Source: Candidatus Bipolaricaulota bacterium
Lineage (GTDB): Bacteria > Bipolaricaulota > Bipolaricaulia > UBA7950 > UBA9294
Reading direction: 5' to 3'
NCBI GenBank assembly: GCA_026390345.1
Contig: JAPLGD010000056.1
Coordinates: forward strand, 1 to 37,142
Length of the DNA: 37,142 nucleotides
Under the pieces are notes generated by a model. The model was not told the DNA's origin and made no database searches. It saw only the letters and a program-made list of their open reading frames with translations. The stretch's first letter is position 1, and each line of letters begins with the position of its first letter. Below are positions 22,513 through 31,828 of this stretch, piece by piece. The translations under genes and the position numbers were made by a program.

Positions 22513-22985
22513 TAGTCGATCGCGGCCGCGTAGGTGAGCGCGGTCGCTGTGTAGAAGAGTTCCACTCCCCCGGGCCATCCGGCCATGACGAACGCGATCG
22601 CGACGAAGGCAGACGCTGACGCGACCTTCCCGAGGATCCTCGCCGCCTGGACGAGGTTTCCGCGCATGCGGAGTGCGAGGGCGCCGATCCCGATCCCGAC
22701 TTGAGGGGCGAGGAACAGGACGACGGCCAGCGTCGGCAAGAAGCCGAGCGTGTAGAGCGTGAACAGGACGGAGACGTACAAGGCCTTATCCACAAGGGGA
22801 TCGAGGACCTTGCCGAGGCGAGTCACCTCGTGCCGCTTCCGTGCGACGAGCCCGTCGATCGGGTCTGTCGCGCAGGCGGCCAGGAAGACCCACCACGCCG
22901 CCCATCGCTCGCCCAGGACCAGGAGAACGACCACCGGAACGATGGCGAGGCCGCGCGTGATCGTGATGGCGTTGGCGAGCGACAT
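22473..22985 (-). CDS. CDP-alcohol phosphatidyltransferase (PgsA-like)
   Basis: MSLANAITITRGLAIVPVVVLLVL...ACATDPIDGLVARKRHEVTRLGKVLDPLVDKALYVSVLF; matches D..DG.AR...G...D...D motif. Confidence 0.9.
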   Translation of the reverse strand: MSLANAITITRGLAIVPVVVLLVLGERWAAWWVFLAACATDPIDGLVARKRHEVTRLGKVLDPLVDKALYVSVLFTLYTLGFLPTLAVVLFLAPQVGIGIGALALRMRGNLVQAARILGKVASASAFVAIAFVMAGWPGGVELFYTATALTYAAAIDYYVAARSLSRSAS

Positions 22986-23031
22986 GATCGCGGAGAATCA
23001 TAGATCGCTCTTCCCTGCTTCACAACTACCC

Positions 23032-23061
23032 TTGAAGCCCTTTCGCCAAGCTCGGTATAAT
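23032..23061 (+). promoter_or_regulatory. Candidate promoter (TTGAAG-18-TATAAT) upstream of the COG2403-like GTPase gene
   Basis: Perfect TATAAT at 23056..23061 about 50 bp before ATG at 23110; TTGAAG at 23032..23037. Confidence 0.55.
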
Positions 23062-23109
23062 CCCACCCTTCACGGGTCCGGTGAGGATCCTGCAAGGGGA
23101 GGGCAAGTC

Positions 23110-24429
23110 ATGAAACGACGCGTCATCATCATGGGAGCCGCCGGCCGCGACTTCCATAACTTCAACGTGTACTTCCGCGACAACACGGACTACGAGGTTG
23201 TGGCGTTCACCGCGACGCAGATCCCGGACATTGCGGGGCGGACATACCCGAAGGAGCTCGCGGGACGCCTGTACCCCACGGGCATCCCGATCCACCCCGA
23301 GGACGAGCTCGCGCAGCTCATCGCGGAGCACAAGGTTGACATCGTCGTGTTCAGCTACAGCGACGTGTCCAACCAGTACGTCATGGAGCGCTCCGCTTTG
23401 GTCAACGCCGCGGGCGCAGACTTCATGCTTCTCGGACCCCGGTCGACCATGGTCCTCCCCAAGAAACCGCTGATCTCGATCACCGCCGTCCGCACGGGCT
23501 CGGGCAAGAGCCAGACGACCCGACGCGTCTGCGACATTCTCAAGGCCAGAGGGAAGAAGCTCGCCGTCATCCGCCACCCGATGCCGTACGGCGACCTTGT
23601 GAAGCAGGAAGTCCAGCGGTTCGAGACGTACGCCGACCTGGACAAGCACGAGTGCACGATTGAGGAGCGCGAGGAGTACGAGCCCCACATCGAAAATGGG
23701 ACTATCGTCTACGCGGGCATCGACTACGAGAAGATCCTCCGAGCCGCGGAGAAGGAGGCCGACGTCATCATCTGGGACGGCGGGAACAACGACTTCTCGT
23801 TCTACAAGCCCGACCTGTCGATCGTGGTTGTCGATCCGCACCGAGCCGGCCACGAGCTTCTCTACTACCCAAGCGCGGTCAACGTCCGGATGGCCGACGT
23901 CATCGTCATCAACAAGGTGGACACGGCCGCCCTCGACGACATTCAGTTCCTGCGCGACAACGTGACGCAGCTGAACCCGCACGCGACCGTGATCGAGGCC
24001 GCGTCGCCGATCCAGGTGGACAACCCGGCGCTGATCCGCGACAAGCGCGTGCTGGTCATCGAGTACGGCCCGACGCTCACGCACGGCGGCATGGAGTACG
24101 GAGCCGGCGTTCTTGCGGCGCGCCGCTTCGGAGCCTCGGAAATCATCGACCCGCGCCCCTACACCGTCGACTCGATCTCGGCGACGTACCGCAAGTACCC
24201 GAAGATCGGGCACCTGCTTCCGGCGATGGGGTACGGCGAGAAGCAGATTCGCGACCTACAGAAGACCGTCGACAAGGTCGAGTGCGACGCCGTCGTCATC
24301 GGCACACCGATTGACCTCGGCCGGCTCTTGAAGTTCAAGGTCCCGGCGACGCGGGTGCGCTACGAGCTGCAGGAGATCGGGCTTCCAAACCTCGAGCAGG
24401 CCCTCGCAGCGAAGTTCCCGAACCTGTAG
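23110..24429 (+). CDS. COG2403-family P-loop GTPase / cyclic 2,3-diphosphoglycerate synthase-like protein
   Basis: MKRRVIIMGAAGRDFHNFNVYFRDNTDYEVVAFTATQIPDIAGRTYPKELAG...VRTGSGKSQTTRRVCDIL...VDVIVINKVDTA; ATG follows an AGGGGAGGG SD. Confidence 0.85.
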   Translation: MKRRVIIMGAAGRDFHNFNVYFRDNTDYEVVAFTATQIPDIAGRTYPKELAGRLYPTGIPIHPEDELAQLIAEHKVDIVVFSYSDVSNQYVMERSALVNAAGADFMLLGPRSTMVLPKKPLISITAVRTGSGKSQTTRRVCDILKARGKKLAVIRHPMPYGDLVKQEVQRFETYADLDKHECTIEEREEYEPHIENGTIVYAGIDYEKILRAAEKEADVIIWDGGNNDFSFYKPDLSIVVVDPHRAGHELLYYPSAVNVRMADVIVINKVDTAALDDIQFLRDNVTQLNPHATVIEAASPIQVDNPALIRDKRVLVIEYGPTLTHGGMEYGAGVLAARRFGASEIIDPRPYTVDSISATYRKYPKIGHLLPAMGYGEKQIRDLQKTVDKVECDAVVIGTPIDLGRLLKFKVPATRVRYELQEIGLPNLEQALAAKFPNL

Positions 24430-24493: not shown

Positions 24494-24682
24494 CTACGCG
24501 TGCGGAGCGCGCCAGGCGAACAGGAGACCGAGCGCCAAGCCGAGCGCCGCACCCATCTCGAGTCCGAACACGAAGTCGTCAAAGCCAAACCCGGCAGCGG
24601 CCCCGACCGCCACGCCAAGCGGCAGGAGCACAGCCAGATGACGCCACCGCCCCAGTCGACTAAGCAAGATCGTCCTCCCCAA
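24494..24682 (-). CDS. Small membrane protein (62 aa, two predicted TM segments)
   Basis: MGRTILLSRLGRWRHLAVLLPLGVAVGAAAGFGFDDFVFGLEMGAALGLALGLLFAWRAPHA; overlaps the 3' end of the HD-GYP gene by 23 bp. Confidence 0.5.
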   Translation of the reverse strand: MGRTILLSRLGRWRHLAVLLPLGVAVGAAAGFGFDDFVFGLEMGAALGLALGLLFAWRAPHA

Positions 24683-25571
24683 TCACAGACAGAAACGCAC
24701 GGACGACACGCGGGTCGAATTGCGTTCCTGCGTTCAGTTTCAGTTCGAGAACCGCGGTCTGCTTCGCAAGGGCCTTCTGATACGGGCGCTCGGACGTGAT
24801 CGCGTCGTACGCGTCCACGACCCCGACGACCCGAGCCTCAATCGGGATCTCCTCGCCCCGGATTCCGCTCGGGTACCCGGACCCATCGTAGTTCTCGTGG
24901 TGGGCCAGGACGATCTTCGCGGCATCCTTGAGGAACGCCTTCTCGCGCAGCATCTCGGCCCCGTGTTCCGGGTGACGGCGCATCTCGACCCACTCGTCGT
25001 CGGTGAGCGGACCCGCTTTGTTGAGGATTCCATCGGGAACCCGCACTTTGCCGATGTCGTGGAGGTAGGCACCGTACGACAGGTCAATCAACCGCTGCGC
25101 GGAGAGTCCCATACGCTCGCCGGTGCGGATCGCCAGCCGCTCGAGACGGTGGCAGTGGCCCTCCGTCGCCTCGTCCTTCTCTTCGACGGAACGGGCGAGG
25201 GCCATCATCTCCTGGATCTCCTCCTTGATCAGGTGGTAGCTCGGCGGCGAAGACACCATCAGGAGATCCACGTCCTCATCCACTCGGAAGTAGGCACGCT
25301 CCGGGAGGCCGCGGTGGTAGAGGTAGTCGCCGCTGCGAACGGTGTTGCCCTTCCCTTCACCGGTCAGGGTCAGAAGCCCGCCGAGGACGTAGATGAACTC
25401 GAACCCGGACCACTCCTTCGCTTCGTCGAGGAAGAAGTGCTTGCCGGCGGCAATGCGATGACGGGTGACCTCGACCGCTCCCTGTTGGACCAGGAGCTCG
25501 AGCGTCGTCGACTTCTTCTCCGCCTTCGGCCGGTCGCCCTCGGACTTGCCCAGGGTTAGCCCGTCAACCAC
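24660..25571 (-). CDS. HD-GYP domain protein with N-terminal cupin-like domain (putative c-di-GMP phosphodiesterase)
   Basis: Cupin-like GFEFIYVLGGLLTLTGEGKGNTVRSGDYLYHRGLPERAYF then AYLHDIGKVRVPDGILNK...HPEHGAEMLREKAFLKDAAKIVLAHHENYDGSGYPSGIRGEEIP; GTG start after a GGAGGGGGC SD. Confidence 0.87.
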   Translation of the reverse strand: MVDGLTLGKSEGDRPKAEKKSTTLELLVQQGAVEVTRHRIAAGKHFFLDEAKEWSGFEFIYVLGGLLTLTGEGKGNTVRSGDYLYHRGLPERAYFRVDEDVDLLMVSSPPSYHLIKEEIQEMMALARSVEEKDEATEGHCHRLERLAIRTGERMGLSAQRLIDLSYGAYLHDIGKVRVPDGILNKAGPLTDDEWVEMRRHPEHGAEMLREKAFLKDAAKIVLAHHENYDGSGYPSGIRGEEIPIEARVVGVVDAYDAITSERPYQKALAKQTAVLELKLNAGTQFDPRVVRAFLSVIGEDDLA

Positions 25572-25768: not shown

Positions 25769-25800
25769 AGACGCGGTGAGCCCTTGTGCTCACCGCGTCT
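25769..25800. terminator. Perfect 13-bp inverted repeat (terminator/stabiliser hairpin) between the HD-GYP and peptide genes
   Basis: AGACGCGGTGAGC-ccttgt-GCTCACCGCGTCT; no strong U-tract on either strand. Confidence 0.65.
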
Positions 25801-25844: not shown

Positions 25845-26030
25845 CTACTCAATCGTGGGGCCGCCTCCGACGTGAATCGGCGAGCTCAGCGCGCTCGGGC
25901 CACCTCCGACGTGAATCGGCGAGCTCAGCGCCTTCGGGCCGCCGCCCACATGGATCGGATCGGCGGAGACACCCACCGCCACGGTCAGGAAGAGAGCAAC
26001 GATGATGCCGACGACTACCCAACGTTTCAT
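25845..26030 (-). CDS. Secreted short repeat peptide precursor (signal peptide plus three PIHVGGGP units)
   Basis: MKRWVVVGIIVALFLTVAVGVSADPIHVGGGPKALSSPIHVGGGPSALSSPIHVGGGPTIE; strong SD (AAGGAGGTCGTACCAAG-ATG); Sec-type leader with VSA cleavage context. Confidence 0.8.
   Translation of the reverse strand: MKRWVVVGIIVALFLTVAVGVSADPIHVGGGPKALSSPIHVGGGPSALSSPIHVGGGPTIE
25857..25958 (-). repeat. In-frame 39-bp tandem repeat (2.6 copies) inside the peptide gene
   Basis: Copies 25920..25958, 25881..25919 and partial 25857..25880 each encode PIHVGGGP; the copy closest to the start codon is the most diverged. Confidence 0.9.
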
Positions 26031-26066
26031 CTTGGTACGACCTCCTTGGGTCCGTACTCGCCGAAC

Positions 26067-30196: not shown

Positions 30197-31828
30197 ATGA
30201 CGTGGGTTCTGACACCCGCCGCAGTGGTTCTCTGGTCGACGGCGATCCTCGCGCTCGTCGTCGTCTGGATCGTGCTGCGGCACGAGGCATTCCCCGGCAG
30301 CCGCGTGTTTCCCTACCTGATGCTCGCCGTAGCGGAGTGGGCGCTCTTCTCCGGTCTCGAAGCGGCATCGACGTATGTCTCGGTCAAGGTCCTCATGTCG
30401 CAGCTGGAGTACGTCGGAATGGCAGCGACTCCGATCCTGTTCCTCATCTTCGCCGCACGCCACTCCGGCTACGACCGCTGGTTGTGCCGCCCGACCCGGC
30501 GAGCCGCGCTCTGGCTTCCCGCCCTCGCCACCATCGCCGTCGCCGCGACGAACAACCAACACCGCTGGCTGTGGGCGGACTACTTGCCGGGCCCCCAGGG
30601 CTCCAACGCAATCATCTACGTTCACGGACCCGCCTACTACGGAATCGCCGCAGAGGTCTACGCATTCGTCCTCGTCGGGTGCGTTCTCGTCGCGCGGTCG
30701 GCGTTCCGCCACTCCGGTGCTCGCCGCCGGCAGGCGATCACGATCCTCCTCGCGTCGGCGTTTCCGCTCACAGCCGGGCTGCTCTACGTCGCCGACGTCA
30801 ACGTGGTTCCGGGACTCGACCTCATCCCCGTCTCCTTCCTCATGACGGGCCTCGTGTTCCTGGTCGGAATCGGGCTCTTCCGGGTGTTCGACCTCGTCTC
30901 CGCCGCCCGCAACGCCCTCATCGAGCAGACAGGCGATGCCGTCCTCGTCGCCGACGCAGACGGCCTCGTCGTCGACGCCAACCCGACCGCCGTGCACTGG
31001 CTCGGCGGCGACTCGCCTCTCGTGGGGCGGTGCATCGCCGCGGTCTTCGCGACGTGGCCGAAACTCCGGTCCGCGTGCCTCACAGAACAGACGGACCGCA
31101 TCGAACTGACCCTGCGCGAGGACCCCTTGCTGCACGTGGACATTCACGTGACTCCGCTGCGCCAGCCCCAGGGCCGGCAGGCCGGCTGCTTCGTCGTCTT
31201 GCGCGACATCACCGAGCGCTACCAGAACGAGGTCACGCTTCAGCACGCGAACGATCAGCTCAAGAGACACGTGCGGGAGATCGAGGCGCTGCAGGGCGAA
31301 CTGCGCGACCAGACCATCCGCGACAGCCTCACCGGCTTGTTCAACCGCCGATACTTGGACGAGATCTTGCCCCGCGAACTCGGACGGGCCGCCCACGAGG
31401 GCGGAGTCCTCTCCGTCGTCATGATCGACATCGACCACTTCAAGGAGACGAACGACACGCGTGGCCATCGCGAGGGCGACCGGCTCCTGTCGCTTCTCGG
31501 ACAGGTGCTGCACGGCGGAACCCGCCCGGGGGACGCTGCCTGTCGCTACGGAGGCGAGGAGTTCCTGCTCATCCTTCCCGGCGCGGCGCCCGAGGTTGCG
31601 AGGGACAGAATGAACACCCTGCGCGCGGAGTACTCCGCGCGCCTCCGCGTCGAGGGGTTCGAGTCTCCGCCGACCCTGTCCGCCGGCGTCGCCGCATTCC
31701 CGGCCCACGCCCAGTCGGACGACGGCCTCCTCCGCGCCGCCGACGCCGCACTCTACCAGGCCAAAGCCGAAGGCCGCGACCGCGTGTGCATCGCCATCGC
31801 GAACCCCGGGAACGCTGATTCCACCTAG
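30197..31828 (+). CDS. Diguanylate cyclase: N-terminal 7TM (histidine-kinase-type) - PAS - GGDEF
   Basis: Multiple N-terminal TMs typical of HisK_7TM, PAS region, then RDSLTGLFNRRYLDEILPRELGRAA...VVMIDIDHFKETNDTRGHREGDRLL...CRYGGEEFLLILPG. Confidence 0.92.
   Translation: MTWVLTPAAVVLWSTAILALVVVWIVLRHEAFPGSRVFPYLMLAVAEWALFSGLEAASTYVSVKVLMSQLEYVGMAATPILFLIFAARHSGYDRWLCRPTRRAALWLPALATIAVAATNNQHRWLWADYLPGPQGSNAIIYVHGPAYYGIAAEVYAFVLVGCVLVARSAFRHSGARRRQAITILLASAFPLTAGLLYVADVNVVPGLDLIPVSFLMTGLVFLVGIGLFRVFDLVSAARNALIEQTGDAVLVADADGLVVDANPTAVHWLGGDSPLVGRCIAAVFATWPKLRSACLTEQTDRIELTLREDPLLHVDIHVTPLRQPQGRQAGCFVVLRDITERYQNEVTLQHANDQLKRHVREIEALQGELRDQTIRDSLTGLFNRRYLDEILPRELGRAAHEGGVLSVVMIDIDHFKETNDTRGHREGDRLLSLLGQVLHGGTRPGDAACRYGGEEFLLILPGAAPEVARDRMNTLRAEYSARLRVEGFESPPTLSAGVAAFPAHAQSDDGLLRAADAALYQAKAEGRDRVCIAIANPGNADST

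Follow-up and report, generated by a model that had tools for sequence, protein, structure and literature searches.

We describe a conserved pair of genes in Bipolaricaulota whose pairing, judged from sequence, points to an undescribed peptide-signalling system that would have a c-di-GMP enzyme as its receptor. The pair was found in a stretch of 37,142 nucleotides, referred to here as the window, which is contig C81 of a 1.98-Mb Candidatus Bipolaricaulota genome. We read it as a two-gene peptide-pheromone system in which the receptor would be the cupin domain of a c-di-GMP phosphodiesterase, and we put the probability of this reading at roughly 0.6. A fuller version, which we regard as an even bet, would make this a phylum-wide pheromone system of a non-TPR sensing class, in which the cupin receptor gates the phosphodiesterase directly and multi-copy pro-peptides come in lineage-specific types that co-evolve with the receptor pocket.

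The peptide precursor gene is a 61-aa open reading frame with an ATG start on the minus strand (25845-26030). Direct reading of the DNA agreed in coordinates and sequence with the initial annotation, which had reported a Sec-type leader and three PIHVGGGP units. The product consists of MKRWVVVGIIVALFLTVAVGVSA and, beyond the putative cleavage point, DPIHVGGGPKALSSPIHVGGGPSALSSPIHVGGGPTIE. The leader occupies residues 1-23 (25962-26030); cleavage after VSA is suggested by inspection and by homologues, where the putative site has the same placement ahead of the first unit. The PIHVGGGP units lie at residues 25-32 (25935-25958), 38-45 (25896-25919) and 51-58 (25857-25880), all on the minus strand, and Tandem Repeats Finder reports the underlying DNA repeat with a 39-bp period, 2.6 copies and a score of 153. 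A Shine-Dalgarno sequence, AAGGAGGT (26040-26047, minus strand), stands 9 nt 5' of the ATG, and strong ones precede the homologues too. Degenerate DNA for PIHVGG matches the 2-Mb genome three times, always inside this gene, and the reversed pattern has no match. Searches of the peptide against Pfam and NCBIfam gave no family above cut-off, and PADLOC did not match it.

A protein search followed by a profile search found homologues in 22 of the 33 genomes of the window's family. Because these share the same layout, the reading frame is neither a chance occurrence nor an assembly artefact, and the comparison confirms it as real and conserved. Across 100 genomes of the phylum, profile matches were confined to this family, the weakest of them there covering the leader only. 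None of the refuting conditions named in the initial annotation came true where sequence comparison could address them. It had proposed looking in relatives for a changing copy number behind a constant unit, and this is what they hold: 2-5 units per precursor, linkers variable in sequence and length, and copies that agree within one gene. It had also considered that the repeats might be a fragment of a larger, unrelated protein, which is ruled out by homologues that are stand-alone reading frames. All family members have a leader of like kind; the first unit begins one residue (two in G028) past a small residue that fits signal-peptidase cleavage, and the last unit ends at the stop codon or 2-3 residues short of it.

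Unit types differ by lineage. The unit is PIHVGGGP or PIHVGGGR/T in g1, g10, g3 and G032, PIHVGGS in g13, PVHVGGS, PVHIGGS or PIHIGGS in g7, PINVGGT, PINVGGE, PINVGGLE or PIQVGGT in g4, PIEVGGE in g2 and PIHVPGGP in g12. Two genomes have additional copies of interest. G003 (C57, L130:494-616) holds a second repeat reading frame, VSKPINVGGTYSTPIDVGGNYSTPIDVAGDYSTPIDVGGK, which is leaderless, has a GTG start and a strong Shine-Dalgarno sequence, lies ~280 bp upstream of the main peptide gene and has N/D at unit residue 3 where the main gene has E; it may represent an intracellular form or else a paralogue that has degenerated. G014 has two peptide genes (L084 and L086, on contigs C190 and C5) with different leaders and identical repeat regions, PIHVGGSSV/A x4; one of them is at a contig end, and the assembly may have been broken at the shared repeat.

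Comparison of the core copies within single genes gave 225 synonymous and 2 nonsynonymous codon differences over 82 copy pairs. As these pairs overlap, the minimum number of changes was also counted position by position, giving 102 synonymous and 2 nonsynonymous changes, while 2778 of the 3852 single-base changes possible in the core codons are nonsynonymous. Copies that differ almost solely at synonymous sites indicate that the gene is translated and under selection, and the excess of synonymous differences rules out recent duplication alone as the source of copy identity. In comparisons of species within a genus, the unit shows the tightest constraint in the precursor (nonsynonymous/synonymous 19/63, against 56/97 for the leader and 62/69 for the linkers). 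Judged by these counts, the units are under purifying selection.

Most of the evidence is carried by the partner gene, which the initial annotation missed when it described the peptide gene as having its own intergenic space; the gene is not isolated but forms half of a conserved pair with its downstream neighbor. The partner (24660-25571, minus strand) encodes a protein of 303 aa, with a GTG start placed by alignment and an AF2 model of pLDDT 82. Its cupin domain spans residues 24-107 (25251-25502) and its HD-GYP phosphodiesterase domain residues 117-296 (24684-25223; PF13487, E=1.6e-40), both on the minus strand, and Foldseek matches the model to HD-GYP enzymes and, separately, to cupins. 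The catalytic motifs are intact: HD, HHE..DGxGYP and the metal-ligand residues are all present, and H139, H171, D172, H200, H225 and G232-Y233-P234 are invariant in the alignment, except that G006 lacks H139. From the domain and its motifs, we propose that the partner is a c-di-GMP phosphodiesterase. The cupin, on inspection of the alignment, lacks the usual metal-binding histidines. No TPR repeats were found in the partner proteins, for which Pfam gave cupin, HD, GAF and GGDEF matches only and the AF2 model with Foldseek gave cupin and HD-GYP. The proposed receptor has no membrane anchor and looks cytoplasmic. A role in anti-phage defence was considered and rejected, the only sign of it being that the partner weakly matched the HD region of Cas10.

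Within the family, the partner is a single orthologous protein encoded immediately downstream, in the same orientation as the peptide gene; at a few loci it was masked by a longer antisense reading frame and was recovered by further searches. The same 22 of 33 genomes hold both genes, and the remainder, including those of g6, g8, g9 and g11, hold neither. The gap between the two is ~20-40 nt and operon-like in g3, g7, g12 and g13, and ~130-345 nt with a strong hairpin in g1, g2, g4 and g10. The window's own hairpin (25769-25800, minus strand) is possibly a terminator or attenuator. In G006 (L123:3658-4628) the peptide gene is reduced to a Shine-Dalgarno sequence and the first 8 codons, followed by a hairpin, and the partner lacks ~32-34 residues including H139, the first histidine of the HD domain. 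Two genes that function as a pair would be expected to decay jointly, although a fault in the MAG assembly could produce the same picture.

Other genes are also conserved in this neighborhood: rny, nusA, rluD, pgsA, the gene at 22759-24429 and PFOR recur in 15-19 of the 22 family loci, so that chromosome synteny was a real concern as the sole cause of pairing inside the family. An MFS_3 transporter gene stands between PFOR and the peptide gene at ~10 loci of g2, g3 and g4 (e.g. L071:9770-11065). It is possibly a peptide exporter and, since it is not universal, was left outside the core system. The window also holds a membrane-type diguanylate cyclase gene (30197-31828, plus strand; GGDEF match at 31316-31783), ~4 kb from the peptide gene.

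The other families dispel the concern about synteny. Families f4, f6, f7 and f9 contain cupin-HD proteins with 36-49% identity, of which several have extra GAF and GGDEF domains in Pfam. Among 33 cupin-HD loci, one (G039) was left out because its upstream region is masked; in 29 of the 32 assessable loci, over five families, a leader-bearing peptide gene lies directly upstream of the cupin-HD-GYP gene. The three loci that lack an intact one are G048:C10, G054 and G006. When six other conserved neighbors from the window were searched with tblastn against the other-family loci, none was found, and the cupin-HD gene alone was common. As these families share nothing but the pair, synteny is excluded as the only cause. 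All complete genes that immediately precede a receptor gene encode a strong leader and a signal-peptidase-like site.

Outside the family, each pro-peptide has one copy of the motif, at the C-terminus and preceded by a pro-region, and some of the pro-peptides reach 109-123 aa. The upstream reading frames end in FDPIHVVGG (G062), FDPIHVIGG (G082), FDPIHIGGSGG (G059), VDPIHVTK (G051), DNPISIGGSGQN (G048:C71) and FDPINIID (G069:C28). At G069:C27 (L165:3894-4680), two tandem pro-peptides ending in FDPPKLIG* and FDPPTLIG* precede one cupin-HD-GYP-GGDEF gene, and we propose that they are two related ligands of one receptor.

Peptide and receptor also vary together. With peptides scored as His or non-His at unit residue 3, receptor column 49 (25425-25427 in the window) gave the strongest association among the 303 columns. 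Asp stands there in 19 of 19 His-type pairs. In the non-His pairs the residue is F once, Y five times, T once and D once; the D is the exception at G069:C28, where the peptide has N. Columns 87 and 92 also split the two types within the family. The receptor tree, which does not include the f4 and f9 rows, requires the type to have switched at least twice. In a weak alignment to quercetin dioxygenase, using what we take to be its metal-ligand positions, receptor E58 falls on the metal-ligand Glu; by ungapped extension, residue 92 coincides with the final ligand His, and residue 49 comes immediately ahead of the first pair of His. By this alignment, the covarying residues are probably near the cupin pocket. 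We treat the covariation as suggestive of a receptor role and not as proof, because the non-His types of the family form one clade and G069:C28 disagrees. Two receptors without an adjacent peptide gene have D (G048:C10, L126) and Y (G054, L129) at residue 49, which predicts that their ligands, encoded elsewhere, would be of His type and non-His type, respectively.

These observations are consistent with the following mechanism. A pro-peptide with 2-5 pheromone copies, or one C-terminal copy in other families, would be exported by Sec, the pheromone being a short linear peptide with the core P-I-x-[V/I]-G-G. Signal peptidase would free the N-terminal side of the first copy, the last copy would end at or near the stop codon and proteases would cut the linkers. 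The mature peptide, of ~7-9 residues, would enter the cytoplasm through an oligopeptide ABC transporter; re-import has to be assumed, since the peptide has an export leader and the receptor looks cytoplasmic. The genome has possible parts for import and output, with 11 SBP_bac_5 and 11 GGDEF matches. There it would bind directly to the metal-free cupin of the partner protein, and binding would switch the c-di-GMP phosphodiesterase formed by the HD-GYP domain; in other families the output part is HD-GYP, in most cases together with GAF and/or GGDEF. Of these steps, export is read from the sequence, while the later ones, and with them the direction of regulation and any density dependence, are inferred.

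The rival that survives best, which we consider unlikely though it deserves to be taken seriously, is that the peptide works outside the cell, as a signal or an effector, with some other receptor, both genes being co-regulated outputs of one programme and adjacent for reasons of expression. It gains from the leader, which places the peptide outside, while the cupin-HD-GYP protein has no membrane anchor. An AF2 model of peptide and receptor as one chain, obtained by reading through the stop codon in the same frame in the window, also left the units disordered and undocked (pLDDT ~30), in a set-up that seldom docks short peptides. Against this, the pair is retained in unrelated contexts, residues covary at the cupin pocket and the two genes decay together in G006, so we prefer the cupin domain as receptor.

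We think it improbable that the peptide is a periplasmic or surface structural or metal-binding repeat, a role that the initial annotation had offered on the strength of His and Gly. The unit in the window does contain both, behind a leader and in predicted disorder, but entire lineages have Asn, Gln, Glu, Ser or Lys in place of His, a single short copy is enough in other families and the partner is constantly a signalling enzyme. Slightly less credible still is a RiPP-like or antimicrobial precursor with several cores. The initial annotation had left the choice between signalling peptide and RiPP-like product open; a leader, multiple cores and a Gly-rich unit would suit the latter, yet no modification, immunity or peptidase gene is conserved alongside in 23 family loci, database searches assign the peptide to no such group and the partner is a c-di-GMP enzyme. 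The signalling half of that proposal stands: a conserved unit, variable copy number and linkers, a leader, lineage-specific types and a constant partner mean that, on comparative grounds, a signalling peptide is strongly favored. It is very improbable that the precursor binds and regulates the HD-GYP protein directly within the cell, either ahead of export or with no export at all, since the leaderless G003 reading frame with its own Shine-Dalgarno sequence is set against the leaders and cleavage sites found upstream of receptors.

If the pheromone reading is correct, peptide pheromones would be joined directly to c-di-GMP through an additional receptor fold, and there would be a first handle on social behavior in uncultured Bipolaricaulota. 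As the peptide can be predicted from its gene and the proposed receptor is a soluble protein of 303 aa, binding is testable without cultivation, and the natural unit types (H, N, Q, E, S and K at residue 3) with their matching receptor residues offer a ready specificity series. A literature search, with subscription journals mostly outside it, gave no match for the motif and no link between a peptide pheromone and a cupin or HD-GYP receptor.

Quorum sensing by linear peptides that act on cytoplasmic receptors has been described in Bacillota, where the receptors are TPR proteins. The RRNPPA systems (Rap-Phr, PlcR-PapR, NprR-NprX and AimR-AimP) include multi-copy Phr pro-peptides and cytoplasmic receptors, with 1-4 and up to 8 reported pheromone copies per pro-peptide (PMC11343458, PMC10075063), and the criteria for detecting RRNPP systems require a TPR receptor (PMC10075063). 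The likeness is in layout: a short Sec-exported pro-peptide gene adjoins the gene of a cytoplasmic receptor, and the pheromone is C-terminal or multi-copy, the single C-terminal copy of the other families being the classic pro-pheromone arrangement. The precursor, at 61 aa and with a leader by inspection, falls within the size range of small exported pro-peptides (10-100 aa, Sec leader), and a receptor gene is adjacent in 29 of 32 loci, assuming that the cupin-HD protein is the receptor. The differences are that this receptor is a cupin and HD-GYP protein with no TPR match, the phylum is Bipolaricaulota and not Bacillota, the peptide gene lies upstream of the receptor gene and the proposed output is c-di-GMP.

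An HD-GYP phosphodiesterase as the output of a cell-cell signal is known from RpfG of Xanthomonas, where the kinase RpfC senses DSF, a fatty acid, and signals by phosphotransfer to RpfG (PMC3749722). Here, in contrast, the signal would be a gene-encoded peptide and the cupin sensor is in the same chain, with no kinase. Yeast alpha-factor precursors likewise place tandem copies of a single short pheromone, spaced by linkers, behind a leader; they are eukaryotic, act through a membrane receptor, are processed by Kex2 and Ste13 and have no homology to the peptide described here. RiPP precursors differ in their co-located modifying enzyme, of which none is conserved in the 23 family loci. Both components of the pair fall outside the known peptide-signalling families; the system follows the logic of RRNPP and is not a member of that group, its receptor having an unrelated fold.
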